From NCBI GenBank assembly GCA_017559825.1, contig JAFYQR010000122.1, positions 1 through 42,409 of the forward strand: a stretch of 42,409 nt of DNA. Direction: 5' to 3'. The position numbers and the translations under genes are program-made. Positions 2 to 20,840 of this stretch are shown here, in pieces. Numbering within the stretch: the stretch's first letter is position 1; every line of letters begins with the position of its first letter. This stretch comes from Thermoguttaceae bacterium. GTDB lineage: Bacteria > Planctomycetota > Planctomycetia > Pirellulales > Thermoguttaceae. The notes beneath the pieces were generated by a model. The model saw only the letters and a list, made by a program, of their open reading frames with translations. It was not told the DNA's origin and searched no databases.

Positions 2-3000
2 GCGGCGCGCGACGGCGCCGACCCGGACGCCGTCGTCGACGCGTTCAACGAATCGCTGCCGCTCGTCACGGCGCGCCTGAACCGTCCGGTTTACTCCGGA
101 ACCGGCGTCGGCGGCTTCACGCCGATGGAGGCGAAGGACGCGCAAATCACGCCGGACATGCTCGGCAATTCGGACATTCTCAATTTCGGCGGCGACGCGT
201 TGCGGATTCCGTTCGCGTTTTGGACGAACGCGGCGGCGCCGGACTTGGTTCCGTATCGTCGCGGGCCGAACTCGGCGCTCAGTTTTCGCTCGATGTGGGC
301 GCACCTGACCGACGCGAACTACGACGCCGCGCAACGCGAAGCGAACGGCGATTTGCGCTACGCTTGGCTGAACGGCGGCGTTTGGCGAACGAATCCGGTC
401 GCCTACGGTTTCCAAAACGGCGCGTACCTCGAGCCGCCGCGCTTGGCCGCTCCGTACAACGCCGCCGACCGCTTCACGCTTTTCCTGGCGAACTACAAGC
501 AGGCGCCGTTCGTCCGCTCCGGCGACTTGAGCCACGAGTTGTTGGATAATCGCGACCAAACCGTTGTTCCGTCGTTCCACCGTCCGGCGCTCTTCCAAAC
601 GCTGGCTTACGGCGGGTATTTGTCGATTTACGATCAAGCCTACGGCGCGGGCGGCTACTCCGAAACGGCGAGCGGCGCGCTCCTGACGGCGCTCGTTCGG
701 AAGCTGACGCCCCGTCCGCTTCCGCTCGACCACTGGAATTTCGACGGCGGCAACGACCGACTGCGCTACGACGGCGGGAACCCGAAATTCGCCGAAGTCG
801 AAGCGTTCGCTCAACGGATGGCGCAAGACGCTCCGGCGGCGAATCCTTACGACGTCGACGCCGACGGCGACGGCGTCCGCGAAGCGATTTGGATTCCGTC
901 CGGGCTTCCGGTGCGCGTCGACGAAAACGGAACGGCGTATACGACGATGTTCGCGTACACGATTCTCGACCTCGACGGTCGCGTCAACGTCAACGCGGCG
1001 GGAAACTGGGATCAACTTCCGAACAAGGTTCGCCAAGAGTCGCGCTTCGACGAGAACGGCGCTCAGTATTCCGACGCGTCGCAACCGTATAGCTACGTCG
1101 ACGAGTTGGCGCGCGTTTGGACGAACGAAGCGAGCGGCGTTACGATCGACGTCAACTCGCCGTTCTTCAACGCCGAAAACTTGGCCGCGCGTTTCGGTTG
1201 GACCGACGACTGGAACCTTCCGGTCGGAATCGCGCAACGCGGGCAAGGGCGCGGAACGTCGAACGTTCTCCTGTACGAAGCGCTTTCGCAAGCGTTTTCG
1301 CGTCGGTCGTCGAAAGACGTCGCGACGATCGCGTCGAACCTCCTTTGGCGCCGCAATCTGTCGCAGCGCGAAAACCCGACCGGGCCCGTCGACCAATCCG
1401 GCATGAACTGGAGTCTGACGGCGAAGCACGGTTCGCAACCGGGCGCGAAACTTAACGGACAAGAAACGGACGACGCGTTCGGCGCGCGCTACGAGTTCTT
1501 CCGATTCTTCGACCCGATTCGCCTTTATGATCCGAACAACGCGGACTCGAACGAAAACGACGCGACGCTCGCCGAGACGAAAACGATTTTCCCGTGGCGC
1601 GGCAAAACGACGCTCGGCGCGGACTTTTACGCGCTGAACGCGAACGCGGCGCCGGGCTTCGACTTCGCCGACGCGGCGTTCCGCTCCTACGACCCGTTGG
1701 GCGCTCAGATTTACACCTACGCGCCGCGGTACTCGAACAACCCGTATTGGGCGCGGCAAAACGGGCTCGGTTGGGCCGACTCGCCGTATTCGCTCCCGAT
1801 GTTGGAACGTCTGCTCCGTCCGTTCGACTCCGACGCGGCGAACCTGCCGTCGCAACTTGTCGACGACTTGGGGATGAACTTCGACCTCTTCGACGGCGCG
1901 ACCGACGACGTTTCGCGAACCGAGCGCCTGATCGCCGAAGCGCAACGGGCCGACGCGCGTCTCGCGCTGACGACGCTCAGCTCCGACGTGCCGTCGCCGA
2001 GCCTCGTCTTCCCGGACAACAAGCCGCTTGAAGAAGGCGACTATCGCGGCGGCTCGTTCGGGTTCGAGAACCTGATTCGCCGCAACGTCCGCGCCGAGCT
2101 GGAGCGCGTCTTCTTCAAGAAGGAAATCCACCCGGATCCGGAAAACGGAATCGCGTCGGACAACGCGTACCTTTACACCGGCGCGAACGCGCAAGTTTTC
2201 GAGGATAAAGTCGAGGAAATCTCGTCGTATCTGATCGCGATGCTCCCGCCGGAAATCGCCGCCGGGAAGAAGATCGACTTGAACGCCTTGGCGCGCAAAA
2301 ACTATTGGCTCGACGTCGAGTACAATAGCGGGAACCTCGTTTCGAGCGCCGACGTCGCCGGAAGCGAAACGCACAACGTCGGTCTCGTCAAGCGTATGGA
2401 AATGGCGCGAGGGCTTTACCTCGTCGTCATGACGCTTCTTTACGAAGACATGAACGCCGGAACGCTGTACAACGACGGTCTGCTCGACCGAGACGGCGAC
2501 GGCGTCGCGGACGACGCGGACGGCGACGGAAACCCGGACGCGGCGGGCGACCTGCTTCACGATTACGTCGAAGGCTCGTTCGACCTCCTGAAATTCCGCG
2601 GCGACGAAAAAGACCTCGTGGGACGGCAGCTGACCGCGACGCGGATCGCGCAGTGGTGCGTCAACGTCGTCGACTTCGCCGACCCGGACGCGACGATGAC
2701 GCCGTTCTTCTTCGACCCGACGCCGTTCGACGGTTGGTGGGTCGAAAGCAACGACTGGATTGAAGACCCAATGCGCGCGACGCTCGGCTACAACCGTTGG
2801 GAAATCGGCGCCAACTATACGGACGGCGACGGGAACGCTCGCGTCAATCCGGGTTGGGGAGCCGACGCGCCGGAAATTCGCTTCCTCTTCGCGCCGGTCA
2901 ACGGCGTTCCGACGGAGCAAATGGCGGACTTCTTCCTCAGCGCGCTCAACAACAGCAAAGACGCGGCGAACGACGCGACGAGCGGTTACCGCGACGCCGA

Positions 3001-6000
3001 CGGGAACTTCCCGAAGGTTGCGACCGTCGACGCTTCCGGCGTCGAAACGACGACCTTCGTCGACCGCCGCGCGAACGAGTTGATCGCCGAATGGACGAGC
3101 CGCGGAATCCAATCGCTGAAAGACCAATCGAGCGACCTCGGTTTTCGCCTCGCCTGGGGGATGGAACGCCCCGACCTCGTCCTGACGGAAACGCTCAGCT
3201 TCCACGACTTAGGGATCGCCGACACCGACAAGGCGCAAGACGTCGCGGACGGCGCCGACGACGCCGAGCGAAGCGGCGGCGACAAGCACTTCGACCAAGT
3301 GAAGCGTCCGGAAGGCTCGACTTACCTCGAGCTTTACTGCGCCGCGAACCCGAACGTTCCGCAATCGCCGGAGTTGTACGACTACGACGAAACGACGAAG
3401 CAATGGCGTCTTCGTTTGACGAAGAAAACGCCGATTTATAAGGACTCGCTCGGACGCGAACTTGAGTCGCCGGTTTGGCGCGTCGCGATTTCCGACAGCC
3501 GCGACCCGCGCGGACTCAACGTTCCGGGCGACGACGAAGGGGAACAAAAGAAGAACGCTCGTTCGAAGGCCGCCGTTTACCGCAAGGGGCGCAACGGCGT
3601 CCTCGATTGGCTGGCGTCCGGCAAGAAGACCGGAAACGGTCCGAACGAGCGGTTCCCGGACAACGATTTCAGCTTCTTCTCGATGCAGACGCGTCAATTC
3701 CGCAATCTGCCGACTCCGGCGGGCGAGCTGGAAATCGCGTCGATCGCCGACCTCGACCTCTTCCAAGGGTGCGACGAAGCGACGAACCAAGCGAAGGAAC
3801 CGAACGCCGCGACTTACCTCGCCGACTGGAAAGCGTTCAACCTCCGAAATTCGAACGTTCTCGGCCCGGCTTTCGCCGCGTCGCAAGACTCCCGCGTCGA
3901 CTCCGTCGCCGGCAAGCGCGCCGACGCTTGGAGCCTCCGCGAAGTCGAGCTCGATCGTATCCTTTGGTTCAACAAAGCGGAAGGCGACTCGACGAGCGAC
4001 AACAAGAAATTGGGGACGGCCGGGAAGTATCCGGACGCGCTGCGCACCTTCTGCAACGCGGCGGACGAAATCGTTTACCTTGCGCCGAACGAATATTTGG
4101 TCGTCGGTCCGGAAACGAAGCGTTCGCTCGGTTCGACCGCCTTCAACTCGACGGCGGGAGACGCGGAAGACCGTCGCTTCGGCGCGAAGCCGCTCGACTC
4201 CGACGTCGCGAGTTGGATTAACATCGACAACGGCCGCCACGGAACCGACTCCCTGACGAACGCGGGAACAGAAAACCTGTCGCAAGCGGGGAAACCGGCG
4301 CCGAACTACAAGTACATGGTCGCCGTCGCCAACATCGGCGGTCGCGGACTGAACATTTCGGAACCGCTTTGGACGTCGATCGGCGTCGACCCGTACTACG
4401 AAAACCAAGCGGAAAAACTCGATCCGACCGTTCTGAAGAACAATAAGATCGACGTCCGCGACGTCCCGTTCGAAATGCCGAAATCCTGGGGCGACCGCGG
4501 AACCGAAGGCGCCGCGTTTTACGACAATACCGTCGCGAACTACCCGATCGTCCAAGACAAGCTCTTTGGCGTCGGAACCGTTCCGGCGTACAAGTCGGCG
4601 TTCGTTCAACGCGTCGCCGACCCGAACCGCCCGTATCACCCGTTGATGAACCCGTATATCTCCGTCGACTGGAACGCGATGGACTTGACGGTCTTCACCG
4701 GCGAGTGCGTCGAAATCGACGACCTCGAAGGCGAAAGCTCGAGAAAGTTCGTCGACGACGAAGGCGTCGGCGAAGACGCGGACTACTTCGACAACGACGA
4801 AAACCGTATCGAGTTGGCGGAAAATAAAGCGCTGAACATTCCGGCCAAGGGAACGTTCGCTTACGTCGACGCGTTCTCGTCTCGTCAGTGGGGGAACTCC
4901 GCCCAACGCATGTTCGTCGGCGGGGCGCGTCCGGACGGCAAAATCCGTCCGAACGTTTGGGCGCGCGGCGTCCGACTCGGCGACGGCGATCGAGCCGGTT
5001 TGGAAACGCCGAACGACATGACCTCGACGCTGCGCGGCGACGGCTCCGGGAACAATATCCCGGCGCTGAAATGGATTCCGCGCCACACGCTCGGGTTCCA
5101 CAACGACCGCGGCCCGCTCGGGACTTGGGGCGTCGACGCGGACGGGAATCCGGCGTTCACGGAAAACGCCGCGTCCCTTTATTACAAGGGGCTGAACCAA
5201 ACGTACTCGTTCGCCAAGAACGCGTCGGTCGCGACGGCGGATCTGCCGTACCGCGCGGCGCCGCGGACGCCGTTCGAGCACCTCGTTTGGAACGACGCGC
5301 CGTTCGACAACCCGTTCGAGCTGGCGCTTGTTCCGGCGTCCGCGCCGGGCCGTTTCGGGCTCGAGTTCGTCCGCGCCGACGAGCAGTTCTCCTTGGCGAA
5401 GGCTTACGACGTCAAGGCCGGCAAGGAACGCGGCGAATCGCTTGGAACCGACGGCGTTTACGGCTTCGGCGATTGGTACGACAAAGCGGACGACGTCGAC
5501 GAAGGCTTCAAGCGTCGCGCTGGAAAAATCGGGCCGTACTTGAACTTCTTCGCGAGTTCGAAGCGCCCGGGCGAAGCGCTGAACCTCTGCCGCGCGTTGG
5601 AGTTTGTTTATACGCCGTCGCTTTACCTCGGGACGCAAAAGCTCGCCGGGACGGACAAAGACGGAAACCTGATCTCCGCCGGAGACGGGAATCCGCTCTT
5701 CTACTCGGCGCGTCGCGAGCCTGGAAAGATCAACCTCAACACGACGACGGAAGCGGCTTGGAAGGCGCTGTCGCCGCGTTCCGAGCGGGTCTCCGACGAC
5801 GCGAAGCTTCCGGGCTCGCCTTGGCGAGACGAAGCGTCCGACGACGGTTTCCTCGACGTTCGCAGCAACGCGATTTGGACGTACAACGCCGGGGATACCG
5901 ACGGCGACGGAAACGACGACTTCGAGGACGCGAACCGTCCGAACACGTTCGTTCCGTTCCAACCGGCGCATACGACGCCGCTTTGGGGGCAGCTCGACCA

Positions 6001-6622
6001 ATCGCCGGCGCCGCTTCCGATTTCGGCGACGTTGGCCGCGCAAAACGAAACGCGTTTGGACGACCGCGGAACGAACGGCGATCCGCTCTTCGACAACCTG
6101 CGAGAGCGTTACGCGACCGACGGCGGAGAGAAAGTCTACTCTTACGTCGACGCCGACAATAATCGTCAAACGACGACCGACCTCGATTGGCTTATCGCGA
6201 ACGATATCGCTTATACCGAGGTCGCGCTCGGCAAGCGCAACAACCTGTTCGAAGCGACCGCCGAAATGCAGCGGTTGAGCGGAACGACGACGAACCGCTC
6301 GAACGTTTTTGCGATTTGGGTTACGGTCGGCTACTTCGAAGTCGAGCGATGCAACCCGGGCGTCAACATGCCGAGCGTCGACCCGGACGGAAACGAGCTC
6401 ACGCTCGCGAAGCTGATCGACCCGAACTACAAGTGGCACGCCTACTACCAAGCGATTTACCCGGACGGTTACACCTACGGGAAAGAGCTCGGTTCCGAGT
6501 TCGGCGAAACGAAGCGCCGTCGCGGGTTCGCGATTATAGACCGTTCGATTCCGGTCGACTTCCGTCGCGGACAGTCGGCGAACTATCAAGACGCGATTTT
6601 GTTGCAACGCGTCTTGGACTAA
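2..6622 (+). CDS. Giant GspK/Verru_Chthon-like surface or secretion-associated protein (5' end outside window)
   Basis: The frame is open from base 2 to the TAA at 6622 (2206 visible codons), so the true start lies left of the window; the ATG at 125 is only the first in-frame Met. Two motifs recall the GR/K-[IV]-N-[VL]-N signature of GspK-like minor pseudopilins: GRVNVN near 978-995 and GKINLNT near 5722-5742. The C-terminus (about 6500-6620, RRRGFAIIDRSIPV) resembles the ending of large planctomycete/verrucomicrobial Verru_Chthon-type proteins as I remember them. Several acidic DxDxDG loops of the calcium-binding type occur at about 851-880, 2486-2551, 2815-2848 and 5894-5930. Apart from these loops the sequence is non-repetitive and rich in Asn, Asp and aromatics, like exported proteins. 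A role in a type II secretion/pseudopilus-like surface machine is inference; no catalytic motif is visible. Codon use matches the neighbours. Confidence 0.75.
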   Translation, partial: AARDGADPDAVVDAFNESLPLVTARLNRPVYSGTGVGGFTPMEAKDAQITPDMLGNSDILNFGGDALRIPFAFWTNAAAPDLVPYRRGPNSALSFRSMWAHLTDANYDAAQREANGDLRYAWLNGGVWRTNPVAYGFQNGAYLEPPRLAAPYNAADRFTLFLANYKQAPFVRSGDLSHELLDNRDQTVVPSFHRPALFQTLAYGGYLSIYDQAYGAGGYSETASGALLTALVRKLTPRPLPLDHWNFDGGNDRLRYDGGNPKFAEVEAFAQRMAQDAPAANPYDVDADGDGVREAIWIPSGLPVRVDENGTAYTTMFAYTILDLDGRVNVNAAGNWDQLPNKVRQESRFDENGAQYSDASQPYSYVDELARVWTNEASGVTIDVNSPFFNAENLAARFGWTDDWNLPVGIAQRGQGRGTSNVLLYEALSQAFSRRSSKDVATIASNLLWRRNLSQRENPTGPVDQSGMNWSLTAKHGSQPGAKLNGQETDDAFGARYEFFRFFDPIRLYDPNNADSNENDATLAETKTIFPWRGKTTLGADFYALNANAAPGFDFADAAFRSYDPLGAQIYTYAPRYSNNPYWARQNGLGWADSPYSLPMLERLLRPFDSDAANLPSQLVDDLGMNFDLFDGATDDVSRTERLIAEAQRADARLALTTLSSDVPSPSLVFPDNKPLEEGDYRGGSFGFENLIRRNVRAELERVFFKKEIHPDPENGIASDNAYLYTGANAQVFEDKVEEISSYLIAMLPPEIAAGKKIDLNALARKNYWLDVEYNSGNLVSSADVAGSETHNVGLVKRMEMARGLYLVVMTLLYEDMNAGTLYNDGLLDRDGDGVADDADGDGNPDAAGDLLHDYVEGSFDLLKFRGDEKDLVGRQLTATRIAQWCVNVVDFADPDATMTPFFFDPTPFDGWWVESNDWIEDPMRATLGYNRWEIGANYTDGDGNARVNPGWGADAPEIRFLFAPVNGVPTEQMADFFLSALNNSKDAANDATSGYRDADGNFPKVATVDASGVETTTFVDRRANELIAEWTSRGIQSLKDQSSDLGFRLAWGMERPDLVLTETLSFHDLGIADTDKAQDVADGADDAERSGGDKHFDQVKRPEGSTYLELYCAANPNVPQSPELYDYDETTKQWRLRLTKKTPIYKDSLGRELESPVWRVAISDSRDPRGLNVPGDDEGEQKKNARSKAAVYRKGRNGVLDWLASGKKTGNGPNERFPDNDFSFFSMQTRQFRNLPTPAGELEIASIADLDLFQGCDEATNQAKEPNAATYLADWKAFNLRNSNVLGPAFAASQDSRVDSVAGKRADAWSLREVELDRILWFNKAEGDSTSDNKKLGTAGKYPDALRTFCNAADEIVYLAPNEYLVVGPETKRSLGSTAFNSTAGDAEDRRFGAKPLDSDVASWINIDNGRHGTDSLTNAGTENLSQAGKPAPNYKYMVAVANIGGRGLNISEPLWTSIGVDPYYENQAEKLDPTVLKNNKIDVRDVPFEMPKSWGDRGTEGAAFYDNTVANYPIVQDKLFGVGTVPAYKSAFVQRVADPNRPYHPLMNPYISVDWNAMDLTVFTGECVEIDDLEGESSRKFVDDEGVGEDADYFDNDENRIELAENKALNIPAKGTFAYVDAFSSRQWGNSAQRMFVGGARPDGKIRPNVWARGVRLGDGDRAGLETPNDMTSTLRGDGSGNNIPALKWIPRHTLGFHNDRGPLGTWGVDADGNPAFTENAASLYYKGLNQTYSFAKNASVATADLPYRAAPRTPFEHLVWNDAPFDNPFELALVPASAPGRFGLEFVRADEQFSLAKAYDVKAGKERGESLGTDGVYGFGDWYDKADDVDEGFKRRAGKIGPYLNFFASSKRPGEALNLCRALEFVYTPSLYLGTQKLAGTDKDGNLISAGDGNPLFYSARREPGKINLNTTTEAAWKALSPRSERVSDDAKLPGSPWRDEASDDGFLDVRSNAIWTYNAGDTDGDGNDDFEDANRPNTFVPFQPAHTTPLWGQLDQSPAPLPISATLAAQNETRLDDRGTNGDPLFDNLRERYATDGGEKVYSYVDADNNRQTTTDLDWLIANDIAYTEVALGKRNNLFEATAEMQRLSGTTTNRSNVFAIWVTVGYFEVERCNPGVNMPSVDPDGNELTLAKLIDPNYKWHAYYQAIYPDGYTYGKELGSEFGETKRRRGFAIIDRSIPVDFRRGQSANYQDAILLQRVLD

Positions 6623-13502: not shown

Positions 13503-14285
13503 ATGATTCGCTCAATGAAAATAAAGTGTTACGTCGCGGCGCTAATCGGGCTTTGCGTCCTGTTCGCGGGATGCGGCGATTCGAAAACCAACGACGGCAT
13601 CGAAGCGGAAAAGACGGCGGAAACGCTTGACGGCAAGGCGGATAAGGCGACGGTCGGCGAGGCGGATAAGGCGACGGTCGGCGAGGCGGATAAGGCGACG
13701 GAAAGTTACCTCAAAGGGCGCGAGCTTGCGTTCGGCTTGAACGGGCGCAAAATTAATCTGGAACGCGGAATGGCGTTGCTTCGCGAAGCCGCCGATTTGG
13801 GCTCCGTCGACGCAAAAGGAGAGTTGGCGGAGCTTTGTTTGAGCGACGACTCGGGCTTGGGATACGATTTAGCCGTCGAAGCGGCGGAAGCGGGGAATCC
13901 GTTTGGGCAATTTGCGCTCGCGGTGTATTACCAAGAAGGAATCGAGGTTGTCCGCGATCGCGACGAAGCGTGGGAGCTAACAAGAAAAGCGTTTGTCGGT
14001 TTCAAAGAACGCGCGATGAAAAAAGACCCGCGAGCGACGTTACATTATTTGGCGTTAGCGAGTGAATTGGAATTGGAAACTTTCGAAGACGGGCAAATAA
14101 AAGAAATGTTGCGCGAGGGCGCTAACGCAAAGAGCGCGGAAGCCGCGTTGATGCTTGGAAAGTATTACAATAGAATCGAACGCGACGGCGACGGCAAAAT
14201 ATGGTTGCAACGCGCCGAAGAAGCCGAGATTGAGAAATTGGCGGATAAGTTGGGAGAGTTAGCTGAAATTCTGTACTGTTTTTAG
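13503..14285 (+). CDS. Sel1-repeat lipoprotein (first of a paralogous pair)
   Basis: 260 residues. The signal peptide ends in the lipobox LFAGC (Cys24), so the protein is predicted to be lipid-anchored after signal peptidase II cleavage. A short linker with the 8-residue repeat VGEADKAT follows, then a run of Sel1-like helical repeats (MALLREAADLGSVDAKGELA; VEAAEAGNPFGQFALAVYYQ; further degenerate units to the end). Sel1 repeats mediate protein-protein contacts; no catalytic site is visible. The start is set by the duplicated AAGAGGA; the internal ATG at 13515 is an alternative. The segment GRELAFGLNGRKINLERG aligns with GRRLTFGLDGSKVDSKRG of the next gene, which is clearly a paralogue in the same orientation, 77 bp downstream. 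The function is unknown. Confidence 0.8.
   Translation: MIRSMKIKCYVAALIGLCVLFAGCGDSKTNDGIEAEKTAETLDGKADKATVGEADKATVGEADKATESYLKGRELAFGLNGRKINLERGMALLREAADLGSVDAKGELAELCLSDDSGLGYDLAVEAAEAGNPFGQFALAVYYQEGIEVVRDRDEAWELTRKAFVGFKERAMKKDPRATLHYLALASELELETFEDGQIKEMLREGANAKSAEAALMLGKYYNRIERDGDGKIWLQRAEEAEIEKLADKLGELAEILYCF
13638..13700 (+). repeat. 24-bp in-frame tandem repeat (2.6 copies)
   Basis: Copies at 13638-13661 and 13662-13685 are identical and a partial third runs to 13700. They encode ADKATVGE repeats in the linker just after the lipid anchor, so copy number changes only linker length. Confidence 0.92.
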
Positions 14286-14362: not shown

Positions 14363-15487
14363 ATGAATATTAGCGGAAAAAATTGGTCGCGTCGAACGAT
14401 TTTGGTCGCGTCGTTGAGCGCGCTTTGCGCCGCGTTCGTAGGATGCGGCGGAACGGATTCGCAAGGCGGAGGAAGCGGCGAAACGTCGACGGACGCGACG
14501 AGTATGTGGCAAGAGGGCCGCCGGTTGACGTTCGGGTTGGACGGAAGCAAAGTCGATTCGAAACGCGGCGTCGAACTCCTGCAAAAAGCCGCCGACGCCG
14601 GTTCGCTTGACGCGCAGGCCGATTTGGCGACGATATATGATTGGCCGGACGAGTTTGCGCCGATGATCGCGCGAGATGAAAAGAAGGCGATCGAATTGGC
14701 ATTGAAACCTGCGGAGGCCGGAAATCCCTTTGCGCAACTGGTGTTAATTGAGGCTTTTCCGGAGGACGTGGGCGGGGAAGAACTTCGAGCGAAATATTCG
14801 AAAACGGTTCTCGGAGAATTAGAGAAACGAGCGGAAAAAGGGGACGCGCACGCTAAGTTATGGATAGGTAGAATAATGCATATAGGCGGCGAAGCATATG
14901 GAATTCAACAACCTGATATTCAACAACCTGATAGGGAAAAAGCTAAGCGTTACTTGGTCGAAGCCGTTGAATCCGGGAGCGCCGAAGCGATGAGTTACTT
15001 GGGACGTACAGGAATATTATCGAAGTATGAACCGGAGCTTTCTGGGTTGGTCGCCGACAAAAACGAGGCGATGAAATATCTCCAAAAAGCCGCCGACGCC
15101 AATGCTGTGGGCGCGTTGATGCATTACGCGGAATGTTGTCTCGACGGAACGGTTGAACAAGATTCCGAAAAAGCGGTCGCGCTATTGCGCCGAGCGGCGG
15201 AACAGGGCTCGGTGAGTGCAAAGGCACTCCTTGGCGTATGTTACGCCGAGGGACTAGGCGTTTCGATCGACAAGAAAAAGGCGTTTGAGTATTTTTTGGA
15301 CGCCGCGAAGAGCGAATACGCGGCGGAATACGAACGGCGCGGCGCGATGATGAAAGTCGGCGAGTGTTATGAAGAGGGCGTCGGCGTCGAAGAGGATAAA
15401 GACGAAGCGCGCAAATGGTATCATAGGGCGGCCGCCGCCGGAGCGTTGGACGCGGACGAAGCGCTTGAACGCTTGGATGCGAATTGA
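14363..15487 (+). CDS. Sel1-repeat lipoprotein (second of a paralogous pair)
   Basis: 374 residues. The signal peptide has lipobox FVGC (Cys28), followed by a Gly/Ser/Thr-rich linker and Sel1 repeats through the rest: VELLQKAADAGSLDAQADLA, AMKYLQKAADANAVGALMHY, VALLRRAAEQGSVSAKALLG, and GVEEDKDEARKWYHRAAAAG, each about 36 residues. Predicted to be anchored in a membrane facing the periplasm and to act as a protein-interaction scaffold; no enzyme motif. The middle (about 14640-15060) uses more AT-ending codons (tta, cct, gca, ata, ccc) than neighbouring genes, suggesting relaxed selection or a different history. A 15-bp tandem duplication at 14903-14932 adds IQQPD twice. It is probably co-transcribed with the gene at 13503. 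Confidence 0.82.
   Translation: MNISGKNWSRRTILVASLSALCAAFVGCGGTDSQGGGSGETSTDATSMWQEGRRLTFGLDGSKVDSKRGVELLQKAADAGSLDAQADLATIYDWPDEFAPMIARDEKKAIELALKPAEAGNPFAQLVLIEAFPEDVGGEELRAKYSKTVLGELEKRAEKGDAHAKLWIGRIMHIGGEAYGIQQPDIQQPDREKAKRYLVEAVESGSAEAMSYLGRTGILSKYEPELSGLVADKNEAMKYLQKAADANAVGALMHYAECCLDGTVEQDSEKAVALLRRAAEQGSVSAKALLGVCYAEGLGVSIDKKKAFEYFLDAAKSEYAAEYERRGAMMKVGECYEEGVGVEEDKDEARKWYHRAAAAGALDADEALERLDAN
14903..14932 (+). repeat. 15-bp perfect tandem duplication
   Basis: ATTCAACAACCTGAT occurs twice in succession (14903-14917, 14918-14932), in frame, giving IQQPD-IQQPD in a loop between Sel1 repeats. Perfect identity suggests a recent event. Confidence 0.93.
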
Positions 15488-15520: not shown

Positions 15521-15564
15521 AAACGCGTCGGCTGAGCTTGCGGCTTTGTCGACGCGTTTTTGAT
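15521..15564 (+). terminator. Intrinsic terminator of the Sel1 lipoprotein unit
   Basis: A perfect 10-bp outer stem AAACGCGTCG/CGACGCGTTT (15521-15530, 15550-15559) followed by TT-G-ATTTTT. It is a near copy, loop included, of the hslVU terminator at 13141. Confidence 0.8.
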
Positions 15565-15700
15565 TTTTAGAATAAAGCGCGGGAACTCTAAAACAACGCG
15601 TTTGATTTGCTTGAATAACGTTTGAAATCTTCCGGCGAGCGATTTTGCGGCGCGGTGTCAATTTTTTCTCTATTTTTTGTCGCGAAACGTCGCAATTTGC

Positions 15701-15729
15701 TTGACGTCGCTTTTGGCCTTCGGTATAAT
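15701..15729 (+). promoter_or_regulatory. Strong promoter of the nine-module secreted protein
   Basis: TTGACG (15701-15706), 17-bp spacer, perfect TATAAT (15724-15729). The gap 15488-15806 otherwise holds only the upstream terminator. Confidence 0.8.
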
Positions 15730-15806
15730 GAGGTTATACGACGTTCCGAGACGCGGGAACGTCGGCGCGTTTTGGTTGCAAATCAAACGAAAACGGAGGT
15801 TAAGCG

Positions 15807-18800
15807 ATGCGCGATATGTTGAAAAAGGCGAGCGCGGCGCTCGGAACGCTCTTGACGGCTCTTCTTTGTGGCGCGGCGACGGCGTTTAGCGCGGACGATA
15901 AAACGTCGTATTTTCCGTCTATGCCAGACGAGCCGTTCGAGTCGACGGCGAATATCGACCCGCAAACGACAGTTTTTCTTTACTTAGCCGAAAGCGCCGA
16001 CGAGAATCTGCGCCGGATTTACGTCGAGTACAACAAGGCGATTCGGGCGGCGTTTATCGAGTCGGCGGGCGACGACGCGTTCGAGCGATTCCTCAAAGAA
16101 GAGGAAGAGCGGGAGGCGGCGAAGCTGGCCGAAATCGAGGAAACGGCGGCGCTCGAACACGACGCGGTCGTTCGCCAAATCGAAGCGGCGGCGAAAACGC
16201 CGGAGGAAAGGGCGTATCGTATCCGAGTTTTTTACAGAAATTTGGAGGTTCGCGCGCCGCGAACGCCCGAGGAAGAGCCGGAGGCGCGGAAACGAGCGAT
16301 TTCCAGCGAGGCGGAGCGTTATTTGCGCAAAATTTGGCCGCTTCGCCCGCAAGAACGCGTTCGACTTCGCGTCGCGCAAGAAACTTGGCGGCTGATCGAA
16401 AGCAAGATTTGGCCGGAATTTAGCGTCGATTGGGAAAACTTGAATCTCGACGGCGCCCGATTCGATTTCCGCCCGGAAGTTCTTTACGACCTCGACGCGA
16501 CCGGGCGGGGCTTCGAGAAATTCGGCGGTTGGCGCTGGGGGATTCCGGCGACGCTCGAACAGTTGAGCCAAACGAAGTCTTGGCGCGACAAGACGTTGCG
16601 CGGCGCCGATTTTTATCGCGTTTTCGCCGACGCGTCGTTCGCCGGTTGGACGCTCGAAAATTGCCGCTTTTGGGCGGACGAAAGCGGGCAAGGGACGGCG
16701 TTCGACGCCGCGTCGAAAGCGCCGGGCGTCGGACGGGAAACGCGCCGACCGGGCGAGCTTTGGCAAGGCGCGCAAACGGAAAACGCGGAGTCGGAGAACG
16801 TCGCAAACAGCGGCGCCGACGTCGGTTACGTTGGTTGCGATTTTGCCGGCGCGACGCTGAAAAACGTTCTTTTCGACCGCTCGGCGACGATTGCGTTCGA
16901 ACAATTCGCGGCGACGCGCAGTTTTAAGGAAGACGAAATCGCCGCCGAGTTCCGCTTCCCGCTCGACGGTTGGGACTTCGCCGGGAAAAACGTCGACGCG
17001 TTGCGAACCGTCGCGACGCTCGCGGCGGAGGTCGCGGCGCTTGCGGAACCGGGGGAGGAAACGGCGGAAAAACCGGTCGCGGACGAATCGGAGCGCGTCG
17101 TTTATCTTTACTTGAAGAAGGCGCAAAGCGAGAAAGCGCAAGAGATATGGAGCGCTTGGACGGAAAAAGTTCGAGCGGCGAAAGCGGAAAACGGGGCGTA
17201 TGTCGACGCGTTCGGCTTTTACGAACGAGAACGGAGCCCGAAGGCGCCCGTCAAAGCGATTTGGTCGTCCGACTACCGCGGAATCCTCGAACGAACTTGG
17301 GCGCGCGTTTTCGACGGAACCGTCGAAACGCTGGCGTCGGCGAAAATCGACGTCGATTGGGAGAACTTAAACCTCGACGGCGCGACGATTAGCGAAGCGC
17401 CGCGTCGATGCGTTTACGCGGACGAACCGGAGCTTTACGGCGACGCTAAGTGTCCGCTCTTTTACGACGACGTCGGAAACTGCGAAATCGAATACGGGAT
17501 TCGGACGACGCTCGCCGAGTTGCGACGAACCGTAAACTGGCGCGAAAAACGACTTAGCGAAGCAAACTTTGAGCGCGCTTGCTTCGACGAATCGTTCGCC
17601 GGTTGGACGTTGACGAGTTGTAACTTTGATACGCTCTTGCACGGCGGATTGGGCGGCGTCGAAAGAAGCGAAGAATGGTTGAAACGAAATCCCGACGGTT
17701 GCAAGCGCGCCGATTTTACCGACGCGACGCTCGACCGCTGTTTCTTTGACGACGCCGCGGCGATAACGTTCGAGCAGTTCGCGTCGACCCGAAGTTACCG
17801 CGAGGACAAGATTTGCGTTCATTTCTATTTTCCGCCGGACGGTTGGAATTTCGCCGGAAAGAATATCGGCGACCTCAACTCTCCTTACTTGGACGACTTT
17901 TCCTATTTGACGCGGCGCGCAAAACTTGACGGCGCCCGATTCGAGCCGAGTTCGAAGAATTATCCGAAGGGCTTGCCGGAGAAAGTTTGGCGCAACTCCC
18001 GCGCTTGCAAGGAGAAAGACTTGGCGGGCGCGACGTTTTACTCGACGCTCGGCGGCGGCGATTTTTCCGGGTTCGACTTGACCGGCGCGACGATGCGGGG
18101 CGTTCGCGTCAAGAGCCTCGACGGCGCGACGATTCGCGGACTGAAAGTCGTCGCCGGAACCAATTACGGCAATTCGGAACGGGAGCGGATCGAGTTTCGG
18201 CGCCAATGCGAATACGGCAAGATAACGAAGGAAACGATTTGCGCGACGAAAAGCTGGCGCGACAAGGACTTGCGCGACGTCGAGTTCAACTGGTTTTACG
18301 ACCTGACCGGCGTCGACTTCTCCGGTTGCGACCTGCGCGGCGCGACGTTCCGCTTCGCGAAGGGATACGGCAACGAGCTGGAAAAAGCGCCGTTCTTCGA
18401 AGACGTCGACTTTACCGACGCTAACATCGACGGTTGCAAGTTTTACGTCTTCGCGAAAGAAGACGAGCGCAGTTGGCCGACGCTCGAGCAGATTATGTCG
18501 ACCGAAACTTGGAAATCGGGCGATCTCGAACGCTTGAAGACGTGCGTCTTGCCGGACGAAGCGCAAAAAATCGTCGACCGCCGCCTTTTCGAAGCGAGTC
18601 CGGAGTTCGCCGCGAAGGATTTTAGCGGGAAGGAAATCAAGTTCCGCGATATGTCCGGTTGGGATTTAAGCGGTTTGAATTTGACGGGTTGTAAAATCGT
18701 TGCTTGCTCGCTTTGGGACGCGAACCTAACCGGCGCGATTCTCGACGGCGCGACGTTGCGACAGGATTACGCGCCGACCGCCAACGCGACGACGGAGCGT

Positions 18801-19241
18801 TTGCATCGCAAGCCGTTCTTGAATCTCGAACAGTTGGCCGAGACCGACAATTATCGGCGCAAAAGTTTCCGCGATTTCGCGCTTTGGGCGAACGTTCGGG
18901 ACGGTCGCTTCAGCTTCGCCGGGCTCGATTTAACGAACGCGAGCTTTACCGCTCAATTAGGCGGCTTCGACGCGAAAAAATGGGCGTCGCGCGATTTTAC
19001 CGACGCCGAGGTTGAAGGCGGCAATATGCTCGCCTATATGACGAAAGAGCAACTCCTTGCGACGAAAACGTTTAAGGAGGGGCGGCTCGATTACGAAGCG
19101 GTCGATAAGATTCGCGGGAGCAAGGAGCGCGTCGGGGCCGAACTTCGCGCCGAGTACGAGCGCCTGCAAGCCGAGAAAGCGAACGACGCCGAAAACGCGT
19201 CGGAAGCGACGGAAAACGGAGGCGACTCGACGGGCGAGTAA
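15807..19241 (+). CDS. Large secreted pentapeptide-like repeat protein with a recurring EQL/T-WRxKxL module
   Basis: 1144 residues starting after a good GGAGGT site. A Sec signal peptide (about residues 1-29, hydrophobic core then AFSA-DD) predicts export. The body contains divergent pentapeptide-like stretches (LSGLNLTGCKI, ANLTGAILDGATL, DFTDANIDGCKF) joined by a module of about 40 residues: [L/F]-E-Q-[L/F/I]-x-x-T-x-x-[W/F/Y]-[R/K]-x-x-x-[L/I], then F-x-G-x-x-L. Copies start near 16551, 16887, 17506, 17765, 17972, 18225, 18478, 18821 and 19040. The first two thirds also show a long internal duplication: the motif WENLNLDGA recurs near residues 207 and 516, with matching flanks, about 309 residues apart. 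Pentapeptide repeats form a right-handed beta-helix; here the linking module is extra. No enzymatic motif. It forms a single gene between its own promoter and terminator. Function unknown; cell-surface scaffold is a guess. Confidence 0.75.
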   Translation: MRDMLKKASAALGTLLTALLCGAATAFSADDKTSYFPSMPDEPFESTANIDPQTTVFLYLAESADENLRRIYVEYNKAIRAAFIESAGDDAFERFLKEEEEREAAKLAEIEETAALEHDAVVRQIEAAAKTPEERAYRIRVFYRNLEVRAPRTPEEEPEARKRAISSEAERYLRKIWPLRPQERVRLRVAQETWRLIESKIWPEFSVDWENLNLDGARFDFRPEVLYDLDATGRGFEKFGGWRWGIPATLEQLSQTKSWRDKTLRGADFYRVFADASFAGWTLENCRFWADESGQGTAFDAASKAPGVGRETRRPGELWQGAQTENAESENVANSGADVGYVGCDFAGATLKNVLFDRSATIAFEQFAATRSFKEDEIAAEFRFPLDGWDFAGKNVDALRTVATLAAEVAALAEPGEETAEKPVADESERVVYLYLKKAQSEKAQEIWSAWTEKVRAAKAENGAYVDAFGFYERERSPKAPVKAIWSSDYRGILERTWARVFDGTVETLASAKIDVDWENLNLDGATISEAPRRCVYADEPELYGDAKCPLFYDDVGNCEIEYGIRTTLAELRRTVNWREKRLSEANFERACFDESFAGWTLTSCNFDTLLHGGLGGVERSEEWLKRNPDGCKRADFTDATLDRCFFDDAAAITFEQFASTRSYREDKICVHFYFPPDGWNFAGKNIGDLNSPYLDDFSYLTRRAKLDGARFEPSSKNYPKGLPEKVWRNSRACKEKDLAGATFYSTLGGGDFSGFDLTGATMRGVRVKSLDGATIRGLKVVAGTNYGNSERERIEFRRQCEYGKITKETICATKSWRDKDLRDVEFNWFYDLTGVDFSGCDLRGATFRFAKGYGNELEKAPFFEDVDFTDANIDGCKFYVFAKEDERSWPTLEQIMSTETWKSGDLERLKTCVLPDEAQKIVDRRLFEASPEFAAKDFSGKEIKFRDMSGWDLSGLNLTGCKIVACSLWDANLTGAILDGATLRQDYAPTANATTERLHRKPFLNLEQLAETDNYRRKSFRDFALWANVRDGRFSFAGLDLTNASFTAQLGGFDAKKWASRDFTDAEVEGGNMLAYMTKEQLLATKTFKEGRLDYEAVDKIRGSKERVGAELRAEYERLQAEKANDAENASEATENGGDSTGE

Positions 19242-19265
19242 CGCGTCTTTGATTTTTTCTTTTAA

Positions 19266-19294
19266 GCGCCGTTAATCAAATTAACGGCGCGTTT
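19266..19294 (+). terminator. Hairpin terminator after the nine-module protein
   Basis: A perfect 10-bp stem GCGCCGTTAA/TTAACGGCGC (19266-19275, 19281-19290) with loop TCAAA, followed by a short T-rich tail. Confidence 0.7.
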
Positions 19295-19401
19295 GAATTT
19301 CTTGAATTTTGTTTGAAATTGTGTTCGGCGACGGCGGCGCGATTTTGCCGATTTGGCGTGAAGTCGAGCGGCGGAATTTTCGAAAAACGGCGGCGCGGCT
19401 C

Positions 19402-19430
19402 TTGCAATCGGCGTCGCGTCCCGGTATATT
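19402..19430 (+). promoter_or_regulatory. Promoter of the exported lactonase gene
   Basis: TTGCAA (19402-19407), 17-bp spacer, TATATT (19425-19430), about 105 bp before the ATG. Confidence 0.65.
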
Positions 19431-19535
19431 CTTATTAATATCGCGGCGGCGCTTTCGACTTGCGATGGCGAGCGAGCGCGGCGACTCTTTCAACCGGCGG
19501 CGAAACGGTCGCGAAATTCAACGAAAGGAACGAAA

Positions 19536-20840
19536 ATGGCTTTTTTATTCGGACGGAAAACCGGCGTCGGGCTCCTCTGCGCGTTGGCGGCGCTTTGCTG
19601 CGTCGGCGAAGCGGTTAAAGCGGACGACGTTAAAGGCGGCGATTACTGGGTTTACTTCGGCACGTCGACCGGAGGGACGACGCCGGAAATGGACGAAATC
19701 GGAGTGAAGCGCTCCGAAGGGATTTACGTCGGCAAGTTCGACGCGGCGACCGGCGCCGTCTCGGACGTTCGGCTCGCGTTGAAGGCGAACAACTCCGGGT
19801 TCATCGCGACCGTTCCGGAGCGGAATTTGCTTTATTTCGTTAGTTCCCGCGACCGAAAAGACGGCGGCGAAAACGTTTACGCTTGCAAGGTCGACCCGAA
19901 AACCGGCGATATTGAAGCGATGAACTTTATGTCGAACGACGGCGCGGCGGCTTGCCACGTCGCGGTTCGTCCGGACGGAAAGTTCGTTGTCGTCTCGAAT
20001 TACGTCAGCGGCGACTTCGTTGTTTACAAGACGAACGCCGACGGTTCTCTCGCCGAACAAACCGCCAAATATAAGGGGAAGGGCTCCGGCCCGAACAAGC
20101 GCCGTCAAAGCCAACCTTACGGGCACGCCGCGTATTTCGCCGAGTCGAACGGCGTTTGGCGCGTCCTGATGTGCGACCTCGGCTCCGACAAGGTTTACGT
20201 CGCCCGGCTGAACGAAGAGACCGGCGCGCTCGAAGAAGAAACGAAGGTTCCGTTCCTGTCGCTTCCGCCGGGCGCGGGGCCGCGCCACCTCGACGTCGCG
20301 AACGATAAAGACGGCGGTTTGGTCGTTTACGTCTTGAACGAACTCGACTCGACCCTCGCCGTGTTCCGTCCCGATTTCGAAAAAGGCGACCCGGGGCGCC
20401 TTTGCGTCGTCTCGACGCTCGAAGAGAAGTTCCGCGAAAAACTGACCGACGAAGAAACGCTCGTCGACGGGAAAGAATATACGTACGGTAATAAAACGGC
20501 GGAAATTTTCAAAGTCGCGCTCCCGAACGGCAAGACGGTCGTTTACGGAACGAACCGCGGGCAAAACACGCTCGTCGCGTTCGACGCGACCGAAACGCTC
20601 GCCGGGAAAGCCGGGGAAGAAGCGTTCCCGCTCGTTCAACGGATTTCGACGCAAGGCTCGTTCCCGCGGTTCTTTATGATCGACCCGACCGGCCGTTATT
20701 TGATCGTCAGCAACAAGAAAACCGGGACGTCGTTCGTCTTCGCGATCAACCAAGAAGACGGAACGCTGAAACCGACCGGCGCCGACGCGATCAAAATCGC
20801 TTGGGCGATGGCGGGCGGCTTCGTTCCTTGCGCCAAATAA
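19536..20840 (+). CDS. Exported lactonase-family seven-bladed beta-propeller (6-phosphogluconolactonase-like)
   Basis: 434 residues. A signal peptide (residues 1-28, ending VKA-DD) sends it out of the cytoplasm. The mature part fits the lactonase/YbhE-type beta-propeller: YWVYFGTSTGG start, GIYVGKFDAATGAVSDV blade, CHVAVRPDGKFVVVSNYVSGD, SQPYGHAAYF, PPGAGPRHLDVA, YVLNELDSTLAVF, and a late GSFPRFFMIDPTGRYLIVSN blade. Cytosolic relatives hydrolyse 6-phosphogluconolactone; exported planctomycete members more likely open other sugar lactones, which is inference. ATG 19536 follows AAAGGAA. It is monocistronic; the next gene begins 76 bp later. Confidence 0.85.
   Translation: MAFLFGRKTGVGLLCALAALCCVGEAVKADDVKGGDYWVYFGTSTGGTTPEMDEIGVKRSEGIYVGKFDAATGAVSDVRLALKANNSGFIATVPERNLLYFVSSRDRKDGGENVYACKVDPKTGDIEAMNFMSNDGAAACHVAVRPDGKFVVVSNYVSGDFVVYKTNADGSLAEQTAKYKGKGSGPNKRRQSQPYGHAAYFAESNGVWRVLMCDLGSDKVYVARLNEETGALEEETKVPFLSLPPGAGPRHLDVANDKDGGLVVYVLNELDSTLAVFRPDFEKGDPGRLCVVSTLEEKFREKLTDEETLVDGKEYTYGNKTAEIFKVALPNGKTVVYGTNRGQNTLVAFDATETLAGKAGEEAFPLVQRISTQGSFPRFFMIDPTGRYLIVSNKKTGTSFVFAINQEDGTLKPTGADAIKIAWAMAGGFVPCAK

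Follow-up and report, generated by a model that had tools for sequence, protein, structure and literature searches.

The window, by which we mean the whole analysed stretch of 42,409 nucleotides (contig JAFYQR010000122.1 of a Thermoguttaceae bacterium, assembly GCA_017559825.1), carries a gene for an apparently exported pentapeptide-repeat protein of 1144 amino acids, whose features are collected in Table 1. The reading frame starts with ATG, and its N-terminal signal segment, read by eye, lacks a lipobox. Comparison with four orthologues gave a dN/dS of 0.38-0.48; this is therefore a real coding gene under purifying selection, and the long open reading frames on the opposite strand are superfluous as an explanation of anything. 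The Pfam profile PF00805 scores 57.7 bits against a curated cut-off of 20.2 (E 8e-16), and five stretches each pass the pentapeptide profile alone; by this sequence test the protein is a member of the known pentapeptide-repeat superfamily. Its longest regular run, at residues ~936-986, comprises nearly ten pentapeptides, most other patches being shorter. No PEP-CTERM end was detected (PF07589 gave no match, and the C-terminus is acidic and hydrophilic), nor was a cell-wall or outer-membrane anchor found.

Two Sel1-repeat proteins are encoded upstream of this gene, at 13503-14285 and 14363-15487; the latter has a lipoprotein-like signal and matches Pfam Sel1 with an E value of 3.8e-36, and the former falls just under the Pfam cut-off. 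On the other side, 19536-20840 encodes an exported seven-bladed lactonase-like beta-propeller (PF10282), which 18 of 20 genomes in the genus encode. Farther away, a 2165-aa open reading frame (125-6622) has no Pfam match at E 0.001 and is overlapped by an opposite-strand frame of 1132 aa (3209-6607).

Along the 1144-aa protein we located nine EQL-type modules, in line with the preliminary description, which had counted about nine; at each of the nine sites AlphaFold2 places two short helices. The motif given there, [L/F]EQ[L/F/I]xxTxx[W/F/Y][R/K]xxx[L/I], reflects a real pattern but is too strict as written, since it matches literally at only four places (residues 250, 364, 655 and 893), whereas a relaxed form matches at eight. 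Among 2000 shuffled sequences the relaxed motif occurred 0.002 times on average and at most once, which rules out chance or composition as its source. A position matrix built exclusively from other planctomycete genera and scanned without gaps gave seven of the nine sites scores that at most 1.7% of shuffled proteins reach; those at 567 and 723 have diverged too far for the matrix to detect and are backed by predicted helices. Similarly, a module profile derived from other genera recognised the protein with an E value of 6.2e-20 in a search of 201 sequences, and the same profile found one weak domain in 200 shuffles. Alignment of 23 modules, from the window and from other genera, gave the consensus xTxEQLxSTASYxxxxLxxxxFxxxxLxGWDFxxxxLxxxxF, in which a T is the single invariant column; the insert itself can be summarised as [LIF]TxEQ[LF]xxTxS[WYF]KxxxL. 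In the orthologue comparison, 82% of positions were invariant within the modules versus 73% in the rest of the protein (p 0.02). We found no Pfam or NCBIfam model that covers the module.

Table 1. Features of the pentapeptide-repeat gene and its product, in window coordinates
Feature	Position	Strand	Basis
Exported pentapeptide-repeat protein with helical modules (putative), 1144 aa	15807..19241	+	ORF; PF00805 E 8e-16; dN/dS 0.38-0.48
Shine-Dalgarno-like GGAGG	15795..15799	+	7 nt upstream of ATG, from sequence
Putative Sec signal peptide, residues ~1-29	15807..15893	+	By eye; cleavage near ATA-FSA-DD
Putative recombination junction, paralogue-1 type upstream, paralogue-2 type downstream	15937..16016	+	Windowed identity, three relatives
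Predicted N-terminal long-helix domain, residues 66-204	16002..16418	+	AlphaFold2, mostly pLDDT 70-84
Duplication copy 1, residues 155-401	16269..17009	+	BLASTP
Module 1, ATLEQLSQTKSWRDKTL, residues 248-264	16548..16598	+	Matrix scan; predicted helices 250-254, 257-260
Module 2, IAFEQFAATRSFKEDEI, residues 362-378	16890..16940	+	AlphaFold2; matrix scan
Predicted second long-helix domain, residues 442-510	17130..17336	+	AlphaFold2
Duplication copy 2, residues 475-692	17229..17882	+	BLASTP
Module 3, TTLAELRRTVNWREKRL, residues 567-583, diverged	17505..17555	+	Relaxed motif; predicted helices 569-572, 576-580
Module 4, ITFEQFASTRSYREDKI, residues 653-669	17763..17813	+	Top match to phylum-wide matrix; profile; AlphaFold2
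Module 5, LPEKVWRNSRACKEKDL, residues 723-739, diverged	17973..18023	+	Predicted helices 725-729, 732-736
Module 6, ITKETICATKSWRDKDL, residues 806-822	18222..18272	+	Profile; matrix; AlphaFold2
Module 7, PTLEQIMSTETWKSGDL, residues 891-907	18477..18527	+	Matrix; AlphaFold2
Most regular pentapeptide-repeat stretch, residues ~936-986	18612..18764	+	Best Pfam, NCBIfam and PDB sequence matches
Module 8, LNLEQLAETDNYRRKSF, residues 1005-1021	18819..18869	+	Matrix; AlphaFold2
Module 9, MTKEQLLATKTFKEGRL, residues 1078-1094, then predicted C-terminal helix	19038..19088	+	AlphaFold2; matrix
Terminator-like 11-bp inverted repeat with 3-nt loop	19266..19290	+	Followed by T-containing tract, to 19299; just 3′ of stop

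The helices and the solenoid are predicted features. In the full-length AlphaFold2 model (pTM 0.40) the paired short helices at all nine modules lie within a pentapeptide beta-helix, so that the helical-looking insert of the preliminary description is borne out, in prediction, at every site. A separate model of residues 696-1110 reached a pLDDT of 80.7 and a pTM of 0.74 and has paired short helices at all five modules, between strands spaced by five residues; the alignments behind the models were shallow (13 and 17 rows), that for 696-1110 being thinner over the last 40 residues, as the helper rows span ~658-1067. The closest known structures by sequence are pentapeptide-repeat proteins and synthetic solenoids, and by fold again pentapeptide-repeat proteins, with Z scores of at most 8.1 and low TM values, in the range of generic solenoids. 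The N-terminal duplication that had been put at about 309 residues apart over two thirds of the protein is real (residues 155-401 against 475-692, 35% identity, E 2.7e-32 by BLASTP), but it spans the first 60%, with an offset that falls from 320 to 291. Each duplicated half is predicted to consist of a long-helix domain and a solenoid with two modules, and from about residue 696 a third part follows, a longer solenoid stretch with five modules. The preliminary description places a module ahead of each patch of pentapeptides; the last copy (1078-1094) leads into helices instead.

How the module sits in the repeat was read from its relatives. In 37 canonical modules from other genera, hydrophobic centres keep a 5-residue period as far as position -8, then fall at 0, 5, 11 and 16, and afterwards return to that period; positions 0, 5 and 11 belonged to the selection of these modules, and the flanking register did not. 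Positions -8 and 16 thus lie 24 residues apart, and a T stands at +8 in all 37. Spacings between successive modules in 24 proteins were most often 69 (28 times), 89 (12), 109 (3), 129 (6) or 169 (2) residues; a spacing of 138, which is 2 x 69, also occurs in canonical members and probably reflects one missed copy. In total, 52 of 115 spacings equal 9 modulo 20, where about 6 would be expected. With each value counted once per protein the figure is 36 of 95; 43 spacings equal 4 modulo 5, of which 36 fall on 9 modulo 20 and none on 4. When one spacing was drawn at random per protein, a mean of 11 of 24 lay at 9 modulo 20, against 1.2 expected; the proteins are related and their repeats duplicate, so binomial p-values overstate the certainty of these counts. 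In a second class the steps are mainly 207 bp, that is, 69 residues. One turn of a pentapeptide beta-helix is made of four pentapeptides (PMC8145042), and the simplest reading of spacings of 9 + 20n is therefore a 9-residue insert added to whole turns, which would return each insert to the same face. This placement is inferred from sequence arithmetic on the relatives. In the window protein the spacings, taken from relaxed-motif positions and modelled helices, are 114, 205, 86, 70, 83, 85, 114 and 73, and do not follow the 9 + 20n rule; the same-face argument accordingly rests on the relatives, and the window protein is best seen as a less regular, degenerate member of the module family.

The module is real and conserved. 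Within Planctomycetota, to which the genome sampling was confined, the module profile had matches in 33 of the 144 genera sampled from the order Pirellulales (58 of 396 genomes), in 3 of 294 genomes sampled across the phylum and in 6 of 198 in another class. Seven pentapeptide proteins from phages, plasmids and cyanobacteria were scored with the same profile, none convincingly. The relatives are metagenome-assembled Thermoguttaceae sampled in the colon or rectum of goat, water deer, roe deer and water buffalo; the order- and class-wide searches rule out a gut-specific module, and with it the suggested speciality of gut planctomycetes. Most canonical members begin with an apparent signal peptide, after which comes an IF/YRW or IYQWE segment; many have a PEP-CTERM end and some a dockerin. 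Among them are a 2553-aa frame with 12 modules by motif (L110) and, from another class, a 2029-aa frame with 20 profile matches among those listed (L133). The genome of the window encodes two further module proteins, L041 on contig C169 and L042 on contig C65; in the latter the repeats are followed by an additional C-terminal domain of ~200 aa.

The locus itself also differs among relatives. In related species, two to four tandem paralogues of ~460-1850 aa lie between the upstream flank and the lactonase gene, where the window (15540-19536) has a single gene. The upstream region and the first 45-70 codons of this gene match paralogue 1, the remainder matches paralogue 2, reaching 89% DNA identity, and the sequence past its stop codon matches the flank beyond paralogue 3. 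The two patterns meet in an 80-bp segment (15937-16016), over which the window is 90-97% identical to paralogue 1 and to paralogue 2 alike. Judged from these sequence matches, deletion by recombination between repeats would be the simplest account of the mosaic gene. It is unlikely, in our estimation, that a short-read assembler instead joined two similar paralogues in a genome that really has the full array. The window is probably a metagenome-assembled contig, like those of its relatives, and the junction lies just where the paralogues are so alike; against this, an artefact would need two joins, the first inside the gene and the second linking the end of gene 2 with the flank that lies past gene 3, the reading frame of the mosaic is intact, no further array copy was found in the same genome, and in a second species (L077) the fusion ORF is a different one, 1147 aa long. 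Of 20 genomes sampled from the genus, only 7 showed the array. In six genomes, the window's included, the lactonase is 82-100% identical to that of the window and the array or a remnant of it adjoins the lactonase gene; in twelve others, with lactonase identities of 52-62%, no such gene lies within the stretches of up to 1.5 kb covered on either side. Lactonase sequence identity separates the species with the pentapeptide array from those without.

With PF00805 proteins in general, the window protein shares a significant profile match, the 5-residue hydrophobic period, a modelled beta-helix and its best PDB matches; unlike them, it has a recurring two-helix insert, long helical domains, a length of 1144 aa and apparent export. 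Planctomycete pentapeptide proteins with PEP-CTERM or dockerin ends (L012, L015, L108, L118) have the module and an apparent signal peptide in common with it, but they often show 69- or 89-residue spacing and long regular pentapeptide runs, whereas the window protein is the more degenerate one and has neither kind of end. Isolated helical or loop inserts are known in SopA, AlbG and QnrB1, and in SopA short helices replace one solenoid face (PMC8145042). In SopA and NleL, however, this replacement occurs a single time, in an E3 ligase that is a type III effector, whereas the window protein has a repeated, conserved module, is apparently exported and lacks that catalytic domain. AlbG, QnrB1 and HetL likewise have loops or insertions between coils, and no structure matches better than AlbG (Z 8.1), but theirs are one or two unrelated loops rather than a repeated module, and AlbG and QnrB1 are gyrase-related. 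A pentapeptide relative described in 2026, the 'Knotted Solenoid' fold, is reported in that paper from Brevundimonas only and is typically 100-160 residues long (PMC13123833), which rules it out as the identity of the window protein. The preliminary description had called the module undescribed and thought of a distinct repeat architecture. For the module, the first of these agrees with our searches; the protein belongs to a known superfamily. The fold family and single helical or loop inserts are known, and what would be new is the conservation of such an insert and its return at intervals of whole turns, which we did not find in Pfam, NCBIfam or the literature searched. In that literature we found no paper joining pentapeptide repeats with PEP-CTERM, and the papers on planctomycetes or Pirellula apparently concern other subjects.

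Based on these results, we consider it probable that the protein is an exported solenoid with helical inserts, which in canonical members would line up as a same-face ledge, and that it serves as a non-enzymatic scaffold through contacts made by this ledge. The ORF product would fold into two units, each a helical domain plus a solenoid, and a third, longer solenoid stretch; its nine inserts would each form two short helices, with the solenoid carrying on at both sides. In canonical members, 9 residues added to an integral number of 20-residue turns would set a regular ledge on one face. The scaffold would act outside the cytoplasm and make specific contacts via the helical ledge, not the rod, with a partner that may be another copy, an envelope component or a glycan. 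We infer this location and this binding role from sequence and analogy: export because of the apparent signal peptide and the PEP-CTERM relatives, contact because of the module conservation described above, together with analogy.

The modules might instead be capping or stop elements, each ending one short beta-helix and starting the next, so that the protein would be a string of capped domains. Pentapeptide-repeat proteins commonly have helical caps (PMC8145042), the full-length model does not form one confident rod, and the spacings in the window protein are irregular. Yet the modules, which the preliminary description had suggested might cap the beta-helix, appear inside it, with the 5-residue register resuming straight after each; the relatives' spacings are quantised in 20-residue turns, which independent domains would not need; and the 696-1110 model holds together across five modules. 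We regard capping as an improbable explanation. An adhesin or fibre on the surface of gut planctomycetes, diversified by recombination among tandem copies under pressure from host, phage or competitors, is doubtful too. The apparent signal peptide, the tandem paralogues of related species, the mosaic state of the window gene and the presence of the array in only part of the genus are compatible with it, but the protein has no cell-wall, outer-membrane or PEP-CTERM anchor, its dN/dS points to purifying rather than diversifying selection overall, and the module also occurs in planctomycetes of many other genera. A DNA-mimic protein that binds gyrase, as do MfpA, QnrB1 or AlbG, would belong to the same fold class, and the top structural matches include AlbG and MfpA; an apparent signal peptide, a fivefold length, large helical domains and scores far below the NCBIfam cut-offs (22.5 bits against 360 for mfpA, 26.6 against 460 for SmQnr) make this reading extremely improbable.

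Few solenoids are simpler than those built of pentapeptide repeats, whose inserts have mostly been treated as one-off loops. Beyond the ledge-bearing scaffold proposed for the window protein, we suggest tentatively that undescribed exported solenoids across Planctomycetota may carry a linear comb of similar helical teeth on one face of the rod, with up to ~20 teeth per protein, and so form a class of natural scaffolds for one-sided display. If this is true, an insert placed at whole turns would be a natural rule for setting helices on one side of a beta-rod, useful both for understanding the exported proteins of planctomycetes and for scaffold design, and it would give a name and a profile to many proteins that are now labelled only 'pentapeptide repeat'.
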